Assembly: GCF_947077775.1 (NCBI RefSeq)
Contig: NZ_CAMTTE010000001.1
Coordinates: forward strand, 806,001-870,000
Origin: Salinibacter pepae
GTDB taxonomy: Bacteria > Bacteroidota > Rhodothermia > Rhodothermales > Salinibacteraceae
DNA length: 64,000 bases
Direction of reading: 5' to 3'
The translations under genes were made by a program, and so were the position numbers. The notes beneath the pieces were generated by a model. It ran no database searches. It was not told the DNA's origin and was given only the letters and a program-made list of their open reading frames with translations. This document shows, in pieces, positions 45,074-55,322 of this stretch (positions are counted from its first letter, which is position 1; each line of letters begins with the position of its first letter).

Positions 45074-45967
45074 CTAAAACTGAATCGAGAGCCCCACCCG
45101 ATCCGTGGAGAGGATGGGGGCGTACGTGATGTCCGACGGCGACGTGGGAGACGACACCGCCCGCCCGATCAGATATCCCAGCGCGCCGCCCACCGCCACG
45201 TCGGTTAGCCAGTGGTCCCCGCTCCGGATGCGTTCCATCCCCACCGAAGCCGCCAGCCCGTAGGCCGGCACCGAGACATACCACCGGTCGGCCTGGTGGG
45301 CCAGCACCGACGCGATCGCGAAGGCGCGGGCCGTGTGCCCCGAAGGCATGGACGTATGCGTGTGGGCGCCGTCGAACGTGCCGGGTGCCCCGGCGAACGG
45401 GCCGCCGCCCACGAACGGACGCGCCCGGCTCACGAGCCCCTTTGCGACCCCCGTCACGACCTTCGTGTAGGCGACCGCCTCGAGCACGCGGACCGAGGTT
45501 CGGGTCCAGGCCCGGCGCCCCGCCACGAGGCCGCCGGCCGCCAGGATTCCCGCCGTCCCGAGGGCCGCCCGGTCCGGGCCCAGTCGGTCGTACCACCGGC
45601 CGGGGGCGGCCAGCCCCCCAGTGGTGGCGCGGACAGCCCCCGACCGGTCCTGCAAGCGTCGATGAACAGGCCGGTCGAGGGTGGACATCGCACTGAGCAC
45701 CACGCCGGAGGCCCCAAGCGTGAGAAGCTGTTCGGAGCGCGATAGGGTGACGGGCGCCTCCACAATCGCCAGCGCGTTCTGGCCCATGCTTCGAAACGAC
45801 GGGACCCATCCTCTCGGATTGGATTTGTAAACAGGGTCTGGGCCGCTCAAATCCTCAGGGGCCTGTGCACACACGCACCGCGCCCCGAGCAGAACGACCA
45901 CGAAGCAGGCAAACACCGTGCGCAATCGCGCACAGAAACATTTTTCAACGGCGGAACGGAGAGGCAC
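45074..45967 (-). CDS. PAP2-family phosphatase
   Basis: The approximately 297-aa exported protein has the three PAP2 phosphatase motifs: KGLVSRARPF, MPSGHTARAFAIA and MERIRSGDHWLTDVAVGGAL. Homologues dephosphorylate lipid pyrophosphates such as undecaprenyl-PP, or phosphatidic acid. No ATG precedes the signal peptide (FACFVVVLLGARCVCAQ). GTG 45967 gives a sensible signal sequence; a TTG at 46030 would add 21 basic residues. A start with a clear ribosome-binding site was not found, so the 5' end is uncertain. Confidence 0.85.
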   Translation of the reverse strand: MPLRSAVEKCFCARLRTVFACFVVVLLGARCVCAQAPEDLSGPDPVYKSNPRGWVPSFRSMGQNALAIVEAPVTLSRSEQLLTLGASGVVLSAMSTLDRPVHRRLQDRSGAVRATTGGLAAPGRWYDRLGPDRAALGTAGILAAGGLVAGRRAWTRTSVRVLEAVAYTKVVTGVAKGLVSRARPFVGGGPFAGAPGTFDGAHTHTSMPSGHTARAFAIASVLAHQADRWYVSVPAYGLAASVGMERIRSGDHWLTDVAVGGALGYLIGRAVSSPTSPSDITYAPILSTDRVGLSIQF

Positions 45968-46400
45968 GGCGGTTGCGAATGGGCTTGAAATTACCAACGT
46001 TGGACGACGGTCGCGCCTGATGCGTATCAATTTGCCATGGGCGTGTGGGTCCTGTGTGTGCCCCCATTGGTAAGACGGACCGGAGGCCGTGGCCGGCTGC
46101 CCCGAAGGGGATTGGGGGTCGAACTGGCTGAGCAGAAATCGGAAATCTGGAGCGTGTTCCCGAATTGAATTTCAACCCGCTGCCCGCTGCCGCGGAATCA
46201 GCCGGTGGGTGCCGGACCGCCCCCCCAGCAGTCACGGTTTGGGCAATCCCACTCCACGGCCGCGTCACCACACGGCCTTCCATGTAACGCCTCTCAGCTC
46301 GTCCGGACGTATTTGGGCTGCGGACGCGCCCCGCGCCCGGACGCCTGGGTCGCTAAAGTCCCTGCAATGTCTGCCCCGCCACGCTATCGTCCCTGAGAGA
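45968..46400. other. divergent intergenic region
   Basis: About 430 bp between the PAP2 gene and the outer-membrane barrel gene, expected to carry promoters for both. No confident hexamers, inverted repeats or RNA were found. A GAGAGA ribosome-binding stretch ends it, just before ATG 46401. Confidence 0.45.
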
Positions 46401-47714
46401 ATGCCCCCCATGGCACCTTCGACCTGTACGGCACAGACGCTTTTCGGACTTCTTCTGGGCACCTTTCTCGTGGCATCTCCTCCTGCCAGGGCCCAGTCCG
46501 CCTCCCCACCGGCCGACTCCGCGGTGGCGGTCGATTCGAGCACCGCCCCCGCCCCGGAGCCGTACACAACCTCCCGCAGCGTGGCCTACCACGTCCTGGC
46601 GGCGCCCGCGTACGTCCTTCACGGAGCGACGCGGCCGTTGGGATGGGCCGCCCAGTACGTGGAGCGCAACTTTCCCGATCTCTTCGAGCCCCGCCGTCCG
46701 CCGCGGGGCGTACTTCCCCTCGTGGAACTAGGGGGGCCCACCGGGTTTCTCGGGGGCCTTGCCCTGTACGACAACCGCCTGTTTGGCAGCGGCCACGCGG
46801 CCCGGATTGAGGGCCTCTACGGCGGGCCGGACACCTTTGAAGGGGAGGTGTCGTACTCGGCCCCCACGCCCATCGGGGCCGGCTCACGCTTTGACCTGGT
46901 GGCCAATGTCTTCTCCGACCCGGAGAGCGAGTTCTACCTGGATGGGAACAGCAACGACCGGACGACAGACGAGGCCCTGTTCTCGCGGGATCAGGTCGAC
47001 GTGACCGCGGGCCTGCGGTCTAGGCTGCCCGGGTCTCCCCTGCGGGGCGCATTTGACCTGCTGTACGAGCACGTGGAGGCCAGCGGGGAGGATCAAAAGC
47101 TGAGCAGGGCCTCCCCCCCAGGCCTCGGCACGGTCGACCTGTTGACGTCCCGGCTCACGCTGGGCCTCGACGACACCGGCGAGCCGCCGCGCGTGTCTCG
47201 GGGCACCGAGGTTCTTCTTCAGCTCGACTACACCCACGACCTGACCGGCAAACGCTTCCGGTACGGTCGCTACGTGGCCGAGGTGCGGCAGTATCTGCCC
47301 GTGGGCTTCTTTCCCGACTCCCGGCGGCTTGCGCTGCGGGGCCGCCTCGAACAGGCTGAGCCCTTGTTCGACGGCTCGGCGGTCCCCTTCTACCAGCTTT
47401 CGAGTCTTGGCGGCCAAAACACCCTCCGTGGCTTCCAGTCTCGACGCTTCCAAGACGACGGGGCGCTGATGCTGAATGCCGAGTACCGGTACCCCATCTG
47501 GTCAACCCTCGATGCCCTCGTCTTTGTCGACACCGGGCAGGTGTTCGATGAGATCTCCGAGGTTAGCGGCGAGCGATTTCAATGGAGCTACGGGGGCGGC
47601 CTGCACCTGCTGAACCGGAACGGCCTCAGTGCTCGCTTCGAGGTCGCCGGCAGTACGGAGGGCCTCCGGACCATCCTGACCGTGGATCCCAGCTTCCGAC
47701 GCGTTGCCCGCTAG
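46401..47714 (+). CDS. BamA/TamA-like outer-membrane beta-barrel (surface antigen)
   Basis: The 437-aa protein has a signal peptide (TLFGLLLGTFLVASPPARAQ), a Pro/Ala-rich spacer and a barrel related to the Omp85 C-terminal surface-antigen domain. Evidence is the late SSLGGQNTLRGFQSRRFQ and ALMLNAEYRYPIWSTLDALV motifs, like the (V/I)RGF loop of Omp85 proteins, and alternating beta strands throughout. No POTRA domains are present. It may export or insert a partner protein. ATG 46401 has a GAGAGA sequence directly upstream. The lipoprotein-kinase-like gene follows after 53 bp, suggesting one transcript. Confidence 0.85.
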   Translation: MPPMAPSTCTAQTLFGLLLGTFLVASPPARAQSASPPADSAVAVDSSTAPAPEPYTTSRSVAYHVLAAPAYVLHGATRPLGWAAQYVERNFPDLFEPRRPPRGVLPLVELGGPTGFLGGLALYDNRLFGSGHAARIEGLYGGPDTFEGEVSYSAPTPIGAGSRFDLVANVFSDPESEFYLDGNSNDRTTDEALFSRDQVDVTAGLRSRLPGSPLRGAFDLLYEHVEASGEDQKLSRASPPGLGTVDLLTSRLTLGLDDTGEPPRVSRGTEVLLQLDYTHDLTGKRFRYGRYVAEVRQYLPVGFFPDSRRLALRGRLEQAEPLFDGSAVPFYQLSSLGGQNTLRGFQSRRFQDDGALMLNAEYRYPIWSTLDALVFVDTGQVFDEISEVSGERFQWSYGGGLHLLNRNGLSARFEVAGSTEGLRTILTVDPSFRRVAR

Positions 47715-47767
47715 CGTCGGCACGTGTCTACACCCTCGCTCCCTTCCTTCGATCTCTCCTCGATCGC

Positions 47768-49552
47768 ATGATGCGTGTTCGCGTTCTTCCGAGCCCCCCT
47801 CCGGGCCTGCTCCTTGCGGGCCTCCTCGTGGGGCTTGCCGTGGGGGGGTGCGGCAGTACATCCCCCTACACCCTCGGCCCCATCCAGACGACGGATCCGG
47901 ACGACCGCCCGACGGACCGCCCGGAGCAAACCAGGGAGAGCATGTACTGGGACCGGGTCGACATGAGCGTCTTCCACCAGCTGGAAAAGCCCCTGAACCT
48001 GAACTGGACGGGCCGGACGGTGGGCCGCGCTCTGGGGCTGGCCGCCCCGGACCCGGCCGACAACGTGAACGTGCTGGACGAGCCGCCGACCTCCAGCTGG
48101 TACAAGCGGCGCCACTTCTACGACGAAATGTCGCCTCGTGAGCTCGCCGTCGGGCCCAACGAGCGCGACACGACGGGCGTGGCGGCGGGGCCCGCCCAGA
48201 CCGCGCCCTGGACCGTGACGAGCGGGAAGTTTCAGGGAGCGGCCCGCGGCTTTGAAATCAAAGACGCCCGCGGCGACCGGTACCTGATCAAGCTCGACGG
48301 CCCGAAGTGGCCCGAACTTACGACCTCGGCGGAGGTGATCTCGACGAAAATCTTGTACGGGGCCGGGTACCACGTGCCCCAGAACACGATCACCCGCTTC
48401 TCCCCCGACCAGCTCCGCATTGCCGACGACGCCATGGTGAACGGCACGAGCGGCCGCCGCCCCATGACCCGCGAGGACCTCCAGGCCCTCCTGAAGCCCT
48501 ACGACCGGGGCCCGGACGGGACCCTTCGGGGGCTCGCCAGCAAGTATGTGGAGGGCGAGCCGCTGGGGCCGATTTTCTTCCGCGGCACCCGCGACGGCGA
48601 CCCCAACGATCGGGTGCGGCACGAGCAGCGACGCGAACTGCGGGGCCTGCGCGTCCTCTCGGCGTGGCTCAACGACGCGGATCGGCGCCACGCAAACACG
48701 CTGGCCGTCTACACCGACGAGCAGTACGTAAAACACTACCTATTGGACATGGGCTCAACCCTCGGCGCCAACGCGAGCGGCGTCCACACGCCCATCTACG
48801 GCCAGGCCTACCTGATCGACCAGCGCAAAATTACGAGCGCCCTCTTCTCCCTCGGGGCCTACCGCTTTCCCTGGTGGGGCTACGACCCGACCCCGTCGTA
48901 CGAGTCGGTGGGCTATTTTCGGGCGGACGTCTTCCGGCCGGGCGACTGGGTGCCCACCTACCCCAATCCGGCCTTCGAGAAGATGACCGACCGGGACGGC
49001 TACTGGGGGGCCAAGCTCGTCATGAGCTTCACCGACGAGGACCTGGAGGCCATCGTCGCAACCGCTCGAATGAGCAATCCCGACGCGGAGGCCCGCCTCA
49101 TCGACGTCCTTCGGAAGCGCCGCGACAAGATTGGGCGGCACTGGTTTGACAAGGTCAATCCCCTGGACCGGTTCGCTGTGACCCACTCCATCCCCCTGGC
49201 CGAAACGGAGGGGGAGGCATCCAGCGGGCCGGCCCGCCTCACGTTCGACGACCTGGCGGTTCAGGGGGGCCTGGCCCCCGCCACGGCCCGCACCTACACC
49301 TACCGCATGCACCTCGGCGACACGGCGATCGGCAACGCCCGATCGACGGCCTCCACTCACCTTCCCCTGGCCGTCAACGGCGTCCCCCTTCGCCGCGCCC
49401 TCGACCGTCGCGGCCGCTCGACCCCCGAGGCTCGGGTCGTCCGCATCGACCTCCGGACGCGCCACGACGGCTCCCTGAGCGACGCCACACGGGTGTACCT
49501 GCACATTCCGTCCTCCGAGCCCCCACGCGTCGTGGGACTGGATCGCGAGTAG
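47768..49552 (+). CDS. lipoprotein with divergent protein-kinase-like signature
   Basis: This 594-aa lipoprotein has a signal ending VGGC, so it should lie on the periplasmic or outer-membrane face. I know no named family for it. The central region has the order of kinase motifs. There is a lysine in DRYLIKLDGPKWPE (K175) and a helix glutamate in TSAEVISTKILYGAGYHVP (E189). WLNDADRRHANTL has D305 and N310 spaced as in the kinase catalytic loop, and YLLDMGSTLG has D327-x-G like the metal-binding DFG. This resembles HipA/PI3K-like folds. The C-terminal 90 residues are beta-rich. It follows the barrel gene by 53 bp and precedes two nucleotide-type transporters. Catalysis is inferred; it could instead bind a nucleotide or be a pseudokinase. 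Confidence 0.75.
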   Translation: MMRVRVLPSPPPGLLLAGLLVGLAVGGCGSTSPYTLGPIQTTDPDDRPTDRPEQTRESMYWDRVDMSVFHQLEKPLNLNWTGRTVGRALGLAAPDPADNVNVLDEPPTSSWYKRRHFYDEMSPRELAVGPNERDTTGVAAGPAQTAPWTVTSGKFQGAARGFEIKDARGDRYLIKLDGPKWPELTTSAEVISTKILYGAGYHVPQNTITRFSPDQLRIADDAMVNGTSGRRPMTREDLQALLKPYDRGPDGTLRGLASKYVEGEPLGPIFFRGTRDGDPNDRVRHEQRRELRGLRVLSAWLNDADRRHANTLAVYTDEQYVKHYLLDMGSTLGANASGVHTPIYGQAYLIDQRKITSALFSLGAYRFPWWGYDPTPSYESVGYFRADVFRPGDWVPTYPNPAFEKMTDRDGYWGAKLVMSFTDEDLEAIVATARMSNPDAEARLIDVLRKRRDKIGRHWFDKVNPLDRFAVTHSIPLAETEGEASSGPARLTFDDLAVQGGLAPATARTYTYRMHLGDTAIGNARSTASTHLPLAVNGVPLRRALDRRGRSTPEARVVRIDLRTRHDGSLSDATRVYLHIPSSEPPRVVGLDRE

Positions 49553-49663
49553 GCATGGCAGCGCCCCTGGACGCCCACGCCCCTGCGCCCACAAACCTCC
49601 CGCGCGGACGGCGCGTTGGAGAAAGGCGTGCGGCACTCCTCCACATAGCCTTTGTTCTGCTCC

Positions 49664-52399
49664 ATGGGACGCCTTCTGGGCTCGCTGTTTGGACTCCGCC
49701 GCGACGAGCGCGCGATGGCCTTCTGGATGGCCTCCTATCACGTGCTCTTGCTGGTGTCGCTGTACCTGCTGAAGCCGGTGCGCGACAGCCTCTTTCTCTC
49801 TTCCCGCGGCGCCGCCGAACTGCCGTTCGTTTTCATTCTCACGACGGTCGTCGTCGTGCCCGTGGCTCTCCTCCACACCCGGGCGGGCGACCGATTTCGT
49901 CTCGGTGGGCTGATTGACGGCGGCTCCCTGCTGCTCGTCCTGAGCCTGATCGGGCTTCGCGGTCTCCTTGACGTGAGCGGCGCGTGGTCCTCGTATGTGC
50001 TCTACGCGTGGGTCAGCATCTACGGGCTGCTGGTGACGTCGCAATTCTGGCTGATGGCGAACGCCCTGTTTACCTCGTCGCAGTCGAAGCGCGTGTTTAC
50101 CGTTCTGAGCGCGGGCGCCATCTTCGGGGCCATTGTGGGCGGGCAGGTCACGAGCCTGCTGGTGGACACCGTGGGCATGCACAGTGCGAACCTTCTGTGG
50201 GTCGCCAGTGGCGTGCTGCTTGCCGCGACCGTGCTGGCGCGCTGGATCCGGCACCGCTACGCCGCCCCGAGCGACAAACCGCAGGACGCCCCGGACGCGC
50301 CCCCCGAGAAAAGCGAGGCGTCGCCCCTGTCGATCATTCGCGACTCGCGTCACATCCAACTGATCGTCGGCCTCCTGACGCTCATGGTGGTCGTCACGAC
50401 CCTGGTGGACTATCAGTTCAAAACGGTGGCGGCCCGTGCCTACCCGACGGAGGCGGGGCTGACGTCCTTCATGGGGCAGTTCTACGGGGGCGTGAGCGTC
50501 GTCGCGCTCCTCGTTCAGTTCGTGCTCGCCCCGCGATTGATGCGCGTGGTGGGCATCGGCGGGGCCCTGTCGGTGCTGCCCGGCGTTCTGGCGCTCGGCA
50601 GCCTGGGGATGCTCGTCGTGCCGGGTCTTTTGGCGGGCATCTTCCTGCGCGGGGCCGGGCAGAGCCTGAAGCACTCCATCGACAAGACCGGGCGGGAGCT
50701 CCTCTTCGTGCCGGTCCCGCTGCCGAAGAAGAAGCGCGTGAAGGTGTTTATCGACGTGTTCGTGGACCAGGGGGCGCAGGGAATCGGGGGCGTCCTGCTG
50801 CTGGGGCTGGTCACGAGCCTAGGCCTCAGTGTGCAGATGCTGGGCCTCGTCACCCTGGGCCTCATTGCGGGGTGGGGCGTGCTCGCGTACCGGGCCCGCC
50901 AGTCGTACGTCGATCAGTTCCGGACCCGGCTGCGGGACCAAGAGGCGCTCTACGAATCGCCTGCGGAGACCGATGCCTCCACCACCGACACCGACGAGGT
51001 GATCGACTCGCTCTGCAGCCGCGCCGAGACGGAGGCGCTTCAGGCCCTGGAGACGCTGGCGAACGGAACCGGCCCCGTGCCCGTCGATGCGCTGCTCTGC
51101 CTGCTCGACCATCCCGCGCCCGCCGTGCGGGCCCAGACGCTTCGCGTGCTCCGCACGCGCCAGGTGGAGGGGGTCGGCGAGGAGGCCGCAGAAGCGCTTC
51201 GGGACCCGGACCCGGACGTGCAGGTGGCGGCGGCACGCTACCTCTACTGTCAGACTACGGACCGCCACAGGGAACGGCTCCGTCAGGGCCTGAACCACGA
51301 GGACCCCCGAATCCAGGCGGCCACGCTCGGCCTCATCGCCACGGATGGCGACCCCGACGAGTACGAACTCGTCTCCGAGTCGCTCCTGCAGCGGCTCATG
51401 GAGTTAAACGGCGAGACCGGCGCGCAGACCCGCACCCACGTGGCCCGCGTCCTCGGGGTGCTCGACCGCCCCTACCGAAACGACCTCCTCCATCACCTTC
51501 TGCGGGACGACAGCCCCGAGGTGGTGCGGACTGCGATCGAGGCCGCCGGCAACACGAACGACCGCTCGTTTCTCTTCCCGCTGGTCCAGCGGCTCGGCGA
51601 GGACGCCTACGCCTCGGCCGCCCGGCAGGCCCTCTCACGCTTCGACCCGCCGGTGCTGGGCACCCTCTACGACTGCCTCGTGGACCCCCAGACCGGTACG
51701 GACATCCGATCCCGCATCCCTGCCATCTTCGTCGATCAGTCGGGGCCCTTCGCGGTTGCGATTCTCGTACGGGGCCTCCGGAAGGTGGCGGTGCCGGTGC
51801 GACACGCCATCGCCCGGGCCTTGAGCAAGCTGCACAAGACCGTCGACGCCTCCCCCTCGGATCCCGACGAACTGGACACGGTGATTAAACGGGAGGCGGA
51901 GCACTACGCCGCCCTCGGACAGATTCAACGCCTCCTGCGGCGCCCCGCTACGCATTCGGCCTCCATCGATCCGGCCGCGCTGCGGCCCCTCCAGAAGGAG
52001 GGGCTCGAGCGCATTTTCCGCCTGCTGGGCCTCCGCTACAACCAGCGCGACATCTACGACGCCTACCTCGGCATCACCAGCCCCGACCCGACGCTCCGGG
52101 ACAGCGCCATCGAGTTCGTCGATAACCTCGTCGACTACGACACGCGTCGCTACCTGCTTCCACTCCTGGACGACCCGGAGGGGCAACACGTTCTGGAGGT
52201 GGGGGCCAAGTTCTTCGACCGGGCCCTTCGGGACTGGGCCGCCGCCCGCAAGTACCTGCGCGCGGCGGACGACCCACGGCTCACGGCGCTCCTCGAAGAC
52301 GGCACCGACGCCGACATCGAAACGATGCTGGACCCCGAGGCGGCCCGGTCCGAGTCGGGCACCGCCCCTGCTTCCGCCTCCCCGGACGTAACGGCCTAG
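49664..52399 (+). CDS. NTT/TLC-type (ATP/ADP exchange-like) transporter fused to HEAT repeats
   Basis: The 911-aa protein has an N-terminal 12-helix membrane domain (about 1-425) like nucleotide exchange transporters. LLKPVRDSLFLSSRGAAELP, LPKKKRVKVFIDVFVDQGAQ and GQSLKHSIDKTGRELLFVP are motifs shared with bacterial Npt/TLC proteins. A long cytoplasmic region of HEAT-type helical repeats follows (about 460-870; PAPAVRAQTLRVLRTRQ, DPDPDVQVAAARYLY, DDSPEVVRTAIEAAGNTNDR). ATG 49664 starts just before the first helix, 111 bp after the kinase-like gene. HEAT repeats suggest docking of partner proteins. Transport of nucleotides is inferred from family; direction is unknown. Confidence 0.85.
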   Translation: MGRLLGSLFGLRRDERAMAFWMASYHVLLLVSLYLLKPVRDSLFLSSRGAAELPFVFILTTVVVVPVALLHTRAGDRFRLGGLIDGGSLLLVLSLIGLRGLLDVSGAWSSYVLYAWVSIYGLLVTSQFWLMANALFTSSQSKRVFTVLSAGAIFGAIVGGQVTSLLVDTVGMHSANLLWVASGVLLAATVLARWIRHRYAAPSDKPQDAPDAPPEKSEASPLSIIRDSRHIQLIVGLLTLMVVVTTLVDYQFKTVAARAYPTEAGLTSFMGQFYGGVSVVALLVQFVLAPRLMRVVGIGGALSVLPGVLALGSLGMLVVPGLLAGIFLRGAGQSLKHSIDKTGRELLFVPVPLPKKKRVKVFIDVFVDQGAQGIGGVLLLGLVTSLGLSVQMLGLVTLGLIAGWGVLAYRARQSYVDQFRTRLRDQEALYESPAETDASTTDTDEVIDSLCSRAETEALQALETLANGTGPVPVDALLCLLDHPAPAVRAQTLRVLRTRQVEGVGEEAAEALRDPDPDVQVAAARYLYCQTTDRHRERLRQGLNHEDPRIQAATLGLIATDGDPDEYELVSESLLQRLMELNGETGAQTRTHVARVLGVLDRPYRNDLLHHLLRDDSPEVVRTAIEAAGNTNDRSFLFPLVQRLGEDAYASAARQALSRFDPPVLGTLYDCLVDPQTGTDIRSRIPAIFVDQSGPFAVAILVRGLRKVAVPVRHAIARALSKLHKTVDASPSDPDELDTVIKREAEHYAALGQIQRLLRRPATHSASIDPAALRPLQKEGLERIFRLLGLRYNQRDIYDAYLGITSPDPTLRDSAIEFVDNLVDYDTRRYLLPLLDDPEGQHVLEVGAKFFDRALRDWAAARKYLRAADDPRLTALLEDGTDADIETMLDPEAARSESGTAPASASPDVTA

Positions 52400-52528
52400 C
52401 CGGGAACGAGACGAAGGCTGCGTCGGGGCACCAGCCGGGGGCCAGCCGGCCCTGCCGACCGCCACGGCCAACTGGGCCCGGCCGGGACGTGAGCCGCTCT
52501 CGATCCCCATCGACGCGACGGACCCGCT

Positions 52529-53881
52529 ATGATTGAGCGCCTCCGCAAAGAGTTCTTCGACATCCGGCCCGGAGAGTGGCCCCTGGCGCTGGGGCTGTCG
52601 ACCTACTTCTTCCTCGTCATCGCCATCTTCTGGGTGCTCAAGCCCATCAAGCGGGGCCTCGTCATCAGCTACTTCGGCGACAACCCGATCCACCTCGCCG
52701 GCTGGGTCCTGTCGGGCGCGCAGGCCGAGCAGGTGGGCAAGGTGCTCAACATGCTCGTGGCGTTCGCCGTGGTGGGCCTCTTTACGTGGCTGGTCCGGCG
52801 CTACGCCCGCCACTACCTGATCGTGATCTTCTGCGGGGTGTTCGGGGCGCTCTTTCTCTTCTTCGGGAGCGTCATCAACCAGATCGAAGGGCTGGGGCAG
52901 GCCGGCGTCTGGTCGTTCTACGTGACGGGCGACATCTGGACGACCGTCATGGTGGCCACCTTCTGGGCCTTCGCCAACGACCTGAATACGGGCGACCAGG
53001 CGGAGCGGCTGTACGGGATCGTAGGGCTGGGCGGGGTGGTCGGCGGTTTCGTCGGGGCCTTCGTGGTAAGCGGGCTCGTGGAGCAGATGGGACGCTCCAC
53101 GCTCGTGCTGGCCTGCCTCGTCCCCACCGCCCTGATCGCGGTGCTGGCCGTCTGGATTCACCGGCGCGAGTGCCGGGCCAACCCGGAGGTTCCCTGCGCC
53201 CCAAAGGCGGACGCCGTGCTCGACCCGGAGGAGGAAAACGCATTTCTGGAGGGCGGCAAGCTCGTCCTGAACTCGACGTACCTGCTCGGCATTGCCGCCG
53301 TGCTGGGGATCTACGAGATGGTGTCCAACATCGTCGACTTTCAGCTGGCCCTGGTCGTCGAGGAGCAGATCGCCGACACGTCGGACCGGTCCGCGTTCTT
53401 CGGGCGCGTGGGCTGGGTCACCAGCCTCGTGTCAATCGGCGTGCAGCTGCTTCTGACCTCCTTCGTAATGAAGCGCTACAGCGTGAAGGTGGCGCTTCTG
53501 TTCCTCCCACTGGCCATCCTCGGCGGCACCGTCGGCTTCGTCCTCCTGCCCACCCTCACGTTCGTCGGGTTCATGTCCGTGAGCGACAACGCGCTCAACT
53601 ACTCGATCAACCAGTCGGCGAAGGAGGCGCTCTACACCCCCACCACGCAGGACGAGAAGTACAAGGCGAAGTCGTTCATCGACATGTTCGTGCAGCGGGC
53701 CGCGAAGGTCGCGTCGGTGGTGCTCAACCTGGGCCTCACGGCACTCGTGGTCGCGGACGCGCGGTGGCTGTCGCTGGCCGTCGGGATCCTGCTCGTGGCC
53801 TGGATTGCCGTGATCCGCTTCCTGGGGCGGCAGTACGAGACGCGCAAGGAGGCGGACGAGCCCGCGTTTGCCGGCGCCTAA
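52529..53881 (+). CDS. NTT/TLC-type nucleotide exchange-like transporter
   Basis: The 450-aa membrane protein has about 12 helices and NTT-type motifs: FFLVIAIFWVLKPIKRGLVI at TM1, LERLYG-type GDQAERLYGIVGLGGVVGG, DNALNYSINQSAKEALYTPT and EKYKAKSFIDMFVQRAAKVA. It lacks the HEAT extension of the preceding paralogue. It lies 129 bp downstream in the same direction, so the two may form a hetero- or homo-oligomeric pair. Family members in intracellular bacteria swap ATP for ADP; in free-living Bacteroidota the substrate is not established. Confidence 0.88.
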   Translation: MIERLRKEFFDIRPGEWPLALGLSTYFFLVIAIFWVLKPIKRGLVISYFGDNPIHLAGWVLSGAQAEQVGKVLNMLVAFAVVGLFTWLVRRYARHYLIVIFCGVFGALFLFFGSVINQIEGLGQAGVWSFYVTGDIWTTVMVATFWAFANDLNTGDQAERLYGIVGLGGVVGGFVGAFVVSGLVEQMGRSTLVLACLVPTALIAVLAVWIHRRECRANPEVPCAPKADAVLDPEEENAFLEGGKLVLNSTYLLGIAAVLGIYEMVSNIVDFQLALVVEEQIADTSDRSAFFGRVGWVTSLVSIGVQLLLTSFVMKRYSVKVALLFLPLAILGGTVGFVLLPTLTFVGFMSVSDNALNYSINQSAKEALYTPTTQDEKYKAKSFIDMFVQRAAKVASVVLNLGLTALVVADARWLSLAVGILLVAWIAVIRFLGRQYETRKEADEPAFAGA

Positions 53882-53942: not shown

Positions 53943-55322
53943 TCAGGGAGCGGGAAAGCATCGGCCCCACTCGAAGAGGGTGACGAGCCGCTCAGTCCCG
54001 ACTTCGTACCGCTTGCCGGTCCAGGTGACGCACACCTCCTCCCCGCCGTCGTCTTCCACGTCCATGAGGACGAACTGGCCGTCGGGCCGCCCGAAGAGGC
54101 GGAACGGGTTGGGGTACGGGCCGTGGGTGTACGGCCCCCCTTTTACGGACCCGGGGCGCGCGAAGGCCGCCGCGTGCACGACCGGAAACCCCGTCCCCTC
54201 CCCCCGTCCGTACGCGCTGTGCGTCCCGTCGTCGAGGGCGACCATGTGGGCGTCGCCCGACAGCATGACCAGTTGGTCCGCCACCCCAATTGAGTCGATG
54301 TACGTCGCCAGCTCACGTCGCTCCGCAGCAAACCCGCCCCAGTGGTCGTCGGACCCGCCCGCCGCCCCAATCCAGGGCACGCTGCTCCCCCAGGCGATAA
54401 CGGGGTAGCGGTCCTTGGCCCGGGCCAGCTGCCGCTTGAACCAGGCTTTCTGGGCGCGCCCCATCATGGTCTGCGCGGAGTCGGGGGCGTCGTTGCGGGT
54501 ACGGGCCGATCGTAGGTCGGTGAGCAGCACCCGCACGCGGCCGACCGTAAACGCCTGGTAGATCGGCCGCCGCCGTGCCTCCGGGGCCAGGGGGTAGTGC
54601 GGGACGTACTCCCGGTACACCTGCTGGGCGACGTCCTGCCCAGGCGCCTGGCGTGAGCTGTTGTTGGGGCCGTAGTCGTGGTCGTCCCACGTGTACGCCA
54701 GCGCCGTGGACCGAAACAGGCGCGCCTGGGGCCCAGAGGCGTGGACCCGCCGGTAGGCCGTGCGGAAGGCCGCCGGATCGGGGGCGTCAATGTTTTCGTA
54801 GTGGAGGTCGCCCAGGTGCAGAAACACGTCCGGCTGGGCGCGTCGAATGGCGCCGAAGACAGGGTGCTGCGCCCCCGTCCGGGCACAGGCCCCGAGGGCC
54901 ATCCGGAACGAGAATGGGTCCGACGCAAAGGTCTGAAATCGGCCCTGCCGGGCAGTGTCAACCACGCCCCCCCGATACAACGCGTAGTGGTACGTGGTTC
55001 GAGGGGTGAGGCCCTCGAGGCGAAAGTGGCGCACGTTGGTGTTCGTGGCGGGGGCGGTGCCGCCAACGATGCGCGGATCCGTCCAGGAGCCGGTCGTGTC
55101 GACCGCCAGACGGAGCCCCGCGGCCGCGACCGGTGGACGCGCCACAACTCGTGCGGAGGAGTCCGTGACGCCCCCGGCCCAGAGAACCGTCGCCGAATCC
55201 ACCGGGACCGATGGCCGCTCCGCTGGTTCGAGGAGACGACACGCGGCGCTTGCGCCGAGGATCATCCCCCCGAGTGCGACGACCGCAGCCAGAGTGCGAG
55301 CGCGAATGGGCGGCACGGGCAC
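53943..55322 (-). CDS. phoD: PhoD-like alkaline phosphatase
   Basis: The approximately 459-aa secreted protein has a signal sequence that may be a lipoprotein signal (GGMILGASAACRLL). An N-terminal Ig-like domain holds LTPRTTYHYALYRGG. The PhoD metallophosphatase domain has FLHLGDLHYENIDAPD, TWDDHDYGPNNSSR, MMGRAQKAWFKRQL and MLSGDAHMVALDDG, which provide iron/calcium ligands. PhoD releases phosphate from phosphomono- and diesters and teichoic acids. The start is GTG 55322; a second GTG lies two codons on and no ATG is available. It converges on the nucleotide-type transporter gene. Confidence 0.92.
   Translation of the reverse strand: MPVPPIRARTLAAVVALGGMILGASAACRLLEPAERPSVPVDSATVLWAGGVTDSSARVVARPPVAAAGLRLAVDTTGSWTDPRIVGGTAPATNTNVRHFRLEGLTPRTTYHYALYRGGVVDTARQGRFQTFASDPFSFRMALGACARTGAQHPVFGAIRRAQPDVFLHLGDLHYENIDAPDPAAFRTAYRRVHASGPQARLFRSTALAYTWDDHDYGPNNSSRQAPGQDVAQQVYREYVPHYPLAPEARRRPIYQAFTVGRVRVLLTDLRSARTRNDAPDSAQTMMGRAQKAWFKRQLARAKDRYPVIAWGSSVPWIGAAGGSDDHWGGFAAERRELATYIDSIGVADQLVMLSGDAHMVALDDGTHSAYGRGEGTGFPVVHAAAFARPGSVKGGPYTHGPYPNPFRLFGRPDGQFVLMDVEDDGGEEVCVTWTGKRYEVGTERLVTLFEWGRCFPAP

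Follow-up and report, generated by a model that had tools for sequence, protein, structure and literature searches.

A gene of the salt-loving bacterium Salinibacter pepae encodes a predicted lipoprotein with the active-site residues of a kinase. Our preferred interpretation is that of an envelope enzyme related to the HipA_2 family, most likely a kinase, which works together with an outer-membrane barrel of the Omp85 type and uses ATP supplied by carriers of the NTT type. We hold this interpretation to be rather probable as a whole. The assignment as a kinase is strong; catalysis, the supply of ATP and its direction, and the substrate are inferred, and no activity data are available. What can be derived from sequence comprises a predicted export signal, the catalytic residue set, the relation to HipA_2, the constant Omp85 neighbour and the linkage to NTT genes.

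How a bacterial kinase can operate outside the cytoplasm is puzzling, the periplasm being commonly regarded as free of ATP. Homologues of ATP/ADP carriers, as well as NTT-HEAT fusions, have been described as widespread in free-living bacteria, the function of the fusions being unknown (Major et al. 2017, PMC5381601).

The gene was analysed within a stretch of 64,000 nucleotides (“the window”; RefSeq assembly GCF_947077775.1, contig NZ_CAMTTE010000001.1, positions 806,001 to 870,000 of the forward strand), the relevant features of which are compiled in Table 1.

Table 1. Features of the kinase lipoprotein locus; positions refer to the window unless a contig is named, and residue numbers to the lipoprotein.
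Feature	Position	Strand	Basis
Omp85-type outer-membrane barrel, directly upstream of the kinase gene	46245..47714	+	Pfam Omp85 (PF01103), 79.2 bits, cut-off 24
Kinase-like lipoprotein KINLP, 594 aa	47768..49552	+	ORF, lipobox, conservation, HipA_2 profile match
Lipoprotein signal peptide (predicted)	47768..47851	+	lipobox Cys28 at 47849-47851, aligned in all lipoprotein-clade homologues
Kinase N-lobe (predicted), residues ~148-260	48209..48547	+	AlphaFold, VIA, hhalign to HipA_2 and HipA_C
K175, ATP-binding lysine, in YLIKLDG	48290..48292	+	30/30 catalytic members; missing from 12 pseudokinases
E189, helix C glutamate	48332..48334	+	29/30 catalytic members (one Asp); pseudokinases Ala or Gly
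Catalytic loop D305-RRHA-N310, within WLNDADRRHANTL	48680..48697	+	invariant in catalytic set; aligns with HipA_2 D-x4-N loop
D327-M-G329, metal-binding loop (DFG-like)	48746..48754	+	Asp in 29/30 catalytic members (one Glu), kept by 8/12 pseudokinases
C-terminal beta-sandwich (predicted), FN3-like, residues ~477-594	49196..49549	+	AlphaFold pLDDT up to 84; VIA Z at most 5.9, weak
NTT-HEAT fusion, TLC ATP/ADP carrier + HEAT repeats	49664..52399	+	TLC (PF03219), 57.6 bits, cut-off 21; HEAT_2 E 1.9e-17
Single-domain NTT, TLC ATP/ADP carrier	52529..53881	+	Pfam TLC (PF03219), 89.5 bits, cut-off 21
Pseudokinase paralogue, source genome (L002, L185)	G000:C1:3150026-3151648		same architecture, signal-like N-terminus, no lipobox Cys

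Gene Start, Export Signal and Homologues

The protein belongs to the class of bacterial lipoproteins insofar as a predicted signal peptide with a lipobox cysteine is present, lipidation itself being inferred. The lipobox reads VGG-C28, and its cysteine is kept by every sequence of the lipoprotein clade in the alignment, which bears out the export that a preliminary description of this DNA had deduced from VGGC. The open frame extends upstream as far as 47582; since this longer frame runs into the Omp85 gene, which ends at 47714, it is more sensible to place the start at the two ATG codons at 47768/47771. On the reverse strand, very long open reading frames lie antisense to the kinase and NTT genes (47711-53161 of the window); they are probably shadow frames of high-GC DNA.

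Convincing homologues were found only in the same class and fall into two groups, namely lipoproteins with the lipobox cysteine and paralogues with a signal-like N-terminus devoid of it. Among the relatives retrieved, the nearest is S. altiplanensis (81% identity), and the source genome—i.e., that of the window—carries one member of each group. Weak matches in two other Bacteroidota genomes (G205 and G261) were rejected as chance; when inspected, one of the proteins looked like a beta-barrel of the outer-membrane type and the other like an AraC regulator. No homologue was found in the viral contigs searched.

Active-Site Residues and Their Concerted Loss

Conservation was counted in an alignment of 42 homologues, 30 of which were classed as catalytic, the remaining 12 being devoid of the lysine, glutamate, aspartate and asparagine of the putative active site (K, E, D, N). 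The elements on which the preliminary description had relied—K175, E189, WLNDADRRHANTL with D305 and N310, and YLLDMGSTLG with D327-x-G—are all located exactly where it had placed them. Non-conservation of K175, D305, N310 and D327, which it had named as grounds for refutation, was not encountered in the catalytic set, the first three residues being intact in all 30 catalytic sequences and the last in 29 of them.

The locus L190 (G330:C18) was counted as catalytic; the script had labelled its halves as degraded, each being without some of the residues. There, the kinase gene is split over two frames (209 and 386 aa), which jointly hold all catalytic residues, and the split is ascribed to a frameshift or an assembly error.

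The 12 sequences that have jointly lost K, E, D and N (hereafter, pseudokinases) all belong to the non-lipoprotein group. The lysine is replaced by L, V, W or R, the aspartate by K, A, S, M or G, and the asparagine by H, R or A. In a tree calculated with the catalytic columns masked, they form a single clade (support 100), which is nested inside non-lipoprotein members that retain the catalytic residues. Out of 80 near-invariant columns, seven have been lost clade-wide, i.e., K175, E189, G263, D305, N310, Y320 (to F) and D351 (to E). Since pseudokinases typically arise by loss of ATP-binding and catalytic residues with the rest being kept, this pattern is strong evidence that the true active site was picked. 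The pseudokinase of the source genome has L/A/K/H in place of K/E/D/N, possesses its own Omp85 gene upstream, and is without a linked NTT. One kinase (L172 of genome G400, contig C395), which is sister to the pseudokinases, has K, E, D and N intact together with a D327E exchange and is a possible intermediate in catalytic loss.

Kinship with HipA_2 and Other Kinase Families

Pfam, NCBIfam and PDB sequence searches with the kinase lipoprotein gave no match, and PDB profile searches with its family returned chance matches only. The earlier impression that the protein cannot be assigned to a named family is, thus, correct as regards Pfam and NCBIfam models. The profile-profile search proposed at that time was carried out with hhalign against four PKL families sampled from the same phylum, and HipA_2 (PF20613, HipA-like kinase) proved nearest, with a probability of 91.6% (E 8e-7) versus 10.7% for HipA_C, 0.1% for CotH and 0.2% for APH; reversed versions did not exceed 0.4% with the same query. 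The match was repeated in a second comparison with a different alignment (88.3%, E 2.9e-6), and its score of 50.3 (50–55 overall) compares with maxima of 21.8 and 25.4 among 150 column and 100 block shuffles of HipA_2, respectively. The alignment covers ~150 columns from strand 1 through the metal-binding loop with all catalytic residues in register; HipA_2 has the invariant residues K44, D148, N153 and D171, and its order of Lys, Glu, D-x4-N and Asp matches that of the lipoprotein. In Pfam scans of single sequences, furthermore, HipA_2 is touched more often than any other family, namely by 6 of 26 homologues (best E 0.028). The lipoprotein itself scores below the Pfam threshold of HipA_2; it is a distant relative of this family by inference from profiles only, and the domain falls in a known superfamily.

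With HipA_2 proteins, the lipoprotein shares the kinase core, the lysine, the helix-C glutamate, the D-x4-N loop and the subsequent aspartate. However, the HipA_2 proteins retrieved are mostly short and single-domain (223–364 aa), whereas the lipoprotein is exported, comprises 594 aa and possesses an extra C-terminal beta domain. The HipA/HipT toxin kinases (PF07804) have an N-lobe that is weakly in register with that of the lipoprotein (hhalign value for HipA_C as above), with no full-length profile match, and no HipA_C domain over the cut-off is present in the lipoprotein or in the source genome. Unlike these toxins, the lipoprotein is exported and neighboured by Omp85 and NTT genes, with no HipB/HipS-type gene noticed alongside.

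FAM20/Golgi casein kinases, which are non-cytosolic, are the best structural look-alikes of the partial lipoprotein model, the likeness being weak and limited to the N-lobe. No match to Fam20C (PF06702) was obtained in the lipoprotein or the source genome, and that family is effectively absent from the phylum sample. CotH (PF08757) is a bacterial PKL kinase family, for which no domain was detected in the lipoprotein or the source genome. Kinship with CotH and APH was dropped, given the lack of similarity in the profile comparison. Likewise, the kinase lipoprotein has no Pfam match to PI3_PI4_kinase (PF00454).

Predicted Structure

Two AlphaFold models were calculated with six close sequences as input and, because only these six were used, they are poor (overall pLDDT 45.5 and 41.6). 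In the predicted N-lobe, strand 1 (148-153), strand 2 (161-165), strand 3 (171-176, with K175) and a helix (187-198, with E189) are followed by more strands, which is the order of a kinase N-lobe; pLDDT is ~70–85 across much of the strand-bearing part and lower near the helix. The placement of K175 in a beta strand and of E189 in a helix, as originally read from the sequence, is reproduced by these models, which, with the lysine in strand 3 and the glutamate in helix C, meet what is expected of a PKL N-lobe. The C-lobe is without a confident model (pLDDT ~25), so that the lobe with the catalytic and metal-binding loops is supported by profile alignment only.

The best PDB matches of the model in Foldseek are Golgi casein kinase and SidJ (E 0.03–0.06), which is not significant alone. 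When the trimmed model was submitted to VIA-align, kinase-fold chains occupied 47 of 50 rows (Z 6.0 to 4.2), headed by Fam20A (Z 6.0, 107 aligned residues, rmsd 4.6); with the whole model, the rows were taken up by FN3 domains that align with the C-terminal part, the last 110 residues showing a weak resemblance to them (Z 5.9). As the Z values are middling, they count as support only. Regarding the kinase-like fold that had been postulated, structure prediction and superposition have, thus, upheld the N-lobe, which resembles kinases including Fam20A; the C-lobe could not be modelled with confidence, and catalysis is not demonstrated.

In view of the low pLDDT of the whole protein and the absence of a direct PDB sequence match, one might suspect that an unrelated fold carries the kinase signature merely by chance. 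This can hardly be upheld against the concerted loss of the residues, the HipA_2 alignment in register and a kinase N-lobe in the confident part of the model, and it is largely refuted by the shuffle controls. The initial judgement that the motifs are too well arranged for chance is, hence, sustained: they are conserved as a set, lost as a set, and in HipA_2 register above the shuffled and reversed controls.

The Omp85 and NTT Neighbourhood

The Omp85 and NTT context, which had been missed in the preliminary description, is the most informative part of the analysis. An Omp85 gene adjoins the kinase gene on the same strand in every locus examined, pseudokinase loci included; no POTRA domain was detected in the upstream Omp85-type protein of the window. 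An NTT gene is linked on the same strand in 28 of the 30 scorable catalytic loci—mostly within 2 kb, at 4.3 kb in L190—and in none of 11 pseudokinase loci, with flanks of at least 7.7 kb per side. In G320, G322 and G424, contig ends made the linkage unscorable.

The association of catalytic state with NTT linkage is pronounced when related sequences are counted as independent (Fisher p 2.5e-8); a tree-aware test had one informative pair and no power, and the contrast, accordingly, amounts to one evolutionary event. Independent of this single transition are the variation in gene order and the adjoining NTT that is also found in three catalytic non-lipoprotein paralogues (L173, L174, L175). The orders include Omp85>KIN>NTT>NTT-HEAT, Omp85>KIN>NTT-HEAT>NTT, NTT-HEAT>Omp85>KIN and others, from which it follows that the kinase-NTT linkage has outlived rearrangement. 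There are two exceptions: in G306 (L187, full flanks), an intact kinase has no nearby NTT and the one NTT is unlinked, and in G400 (L172), no NTT is present on the 8.7-kb contig. Genomes with only pseudokinases (G147, G426, G430, G431, G435, G436) gave no PF03219 match, and no PF03219 genes were found in the source genome beyond the two downstream of the kinase gene. Conversely, NTTs without the kinase gene occur in ~9 genomes of the class.

Both downstream genes of the window encode carriers of the kind known from free-living bacteria (PF03219 and its HEAT fusion), for which the accessible part of Major et al. 2017 (PMC5381601) makes no mention of a linkage of NTT-HEAT to an envelope kinase or Omp85. 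For the single-domain NTT, phmmer gave a match to a chloroplast ADP,ATP carrier of solved structure (9j3j, E 1.4e-16). Omp85, kinase and NTT were the only conserved same-strand families recognised around the loci; the remaining neighbourhood clusters are reverse-strand open reading frames overlapping these genes, or are sparse.

Several further observations concern the surroundings. One locus (L065, G081:C3:269000-288900) contains two Omp85-kinase pairs in 20 kb, with NTT-HEAT upstream of one and NTT pieces downstream of the other. In loci of the Salinibacter type, the NTT genes are followed by a reverse-strand gene (53943-55322 of the window) for a protein with a lipobox-like N-terminus (ASAAC) and the look of a PhoD-type metallophosphatase, which is a possible phosphatase counterpart. 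A PAP2 phosphatase (Pfam, 64.6 bits) is encoded on the reverse strand at 45074-46030; in loci of this type, its gene and the Omp85 gene are transcribed divergently.

The persistence of Omp85 beside pseudokinases has to be weighed in two respects. Firstly, the domain might derive from a kinase and serve the Omp85 barrel as a scaffold or chaperone; ATP bound by the catalytic residues would then have a structural role, and the function would be other than phosphorylation. A non-catalytic role does exist in the family, as the pseudokinases have kept Omp85 and most invariant residues after loss of K, E, D and N; as an account of the catalytic members, though, the proposal appears distinctly unlikely, considering that their catalytic set is nearly drift-free in 30 divergent sequences and linked to nucleotide carriers. 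Secondly, a PKL enzyme of the envelope that is not supplied by the NTTs might form a system of nucleotide uptake together with them and the barrel, in which extracellular ATP enters via the barrel, is detected or consumed by the kinase, and is imported by the NTTs. The combination of outer-membrane barrel, lipoprotein and inner-membrane carrier would also fit this scheme, and parasite NTTs of known function import nucleotides (PMC5381601). We nevertheless consider uptake doubtful, since Omp85 stays with pseudokinases that have no NTT and an importer has no need of an intact kinase. The usual task of Omp85 proteins is, moreover, the folding or translocation of proteins and not the conduction of solutes.

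Proposed Mechanism

In the preferred reading, i.e., that of an ATP-supplied envelope kinase, the two NTT-type carriers encoded downstream would release cytoplasmic ATP into the periplasm and take up ADP in return. The lipoprotein would bind ATP via K175 and E189 and Mg2+ via N310 and D327, with D305 as the putative catalytic base, and would phosphorylate an outer-membrane substrate, for which the Omp85 barrel partner, or something that the barrel handles, is the most probable candidate. The pseudokinases, which keep Omp85 and not NTT, indicate that the partnership with the barrel probably includes a non-catalytic function and that ATP supply belongs to catalysis. The direction of transport by the NTTs is not readable from sequence.

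The substrate may also be other than a protein. A PKL enzyme of the envelope could act on a small molecule, lipid or glycan (e.g., LPS or phospholipid) or perform AMPylation or glutamylation; the HipA_2 profile touches PI4K type 2 and HipT in the PDB, both weakly, and the glutamylase SidJ ranks high in the Foldseek list. We regard this as unlikely in view of the strict Omp85 pairing, which suggests an outer-membrane protein partner, although there are no substrate data either way.

Taken to its full extent, the kinase reading describes a self-contained system of envelope phosphorylation, in which NTT and NTT-HEAT of a free-living Gram-negative bacterium export ATP into the periplasm and, thereby, drive a lipid-anchored HipA_2-like kinase acting on the Omp85 barrel or its clients. 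In this complete form, it is a tentative proposal, which we put forward as a serious possibility and not as the expected outcome.

Significance

In the open-access literature, no paper was found that combines NTT carriers, a periplasmic kinase and Omp85 in Bacteroidetes. The neighbourhood of kinase and NTT genes joins two problems, namely the ATP source of extracytoplasmic kinases and the role of NTT-HEAT, both of which are testable in culturable Salinibacter; the pseudokinase of the source genome, with its Omp85 partner and no linked NTT, provides a natural built-in control. If true, the proposal would assign a physiological role to NTT-HEAT carriers and would show how a bacterium runs a kinase where ATP is absent.
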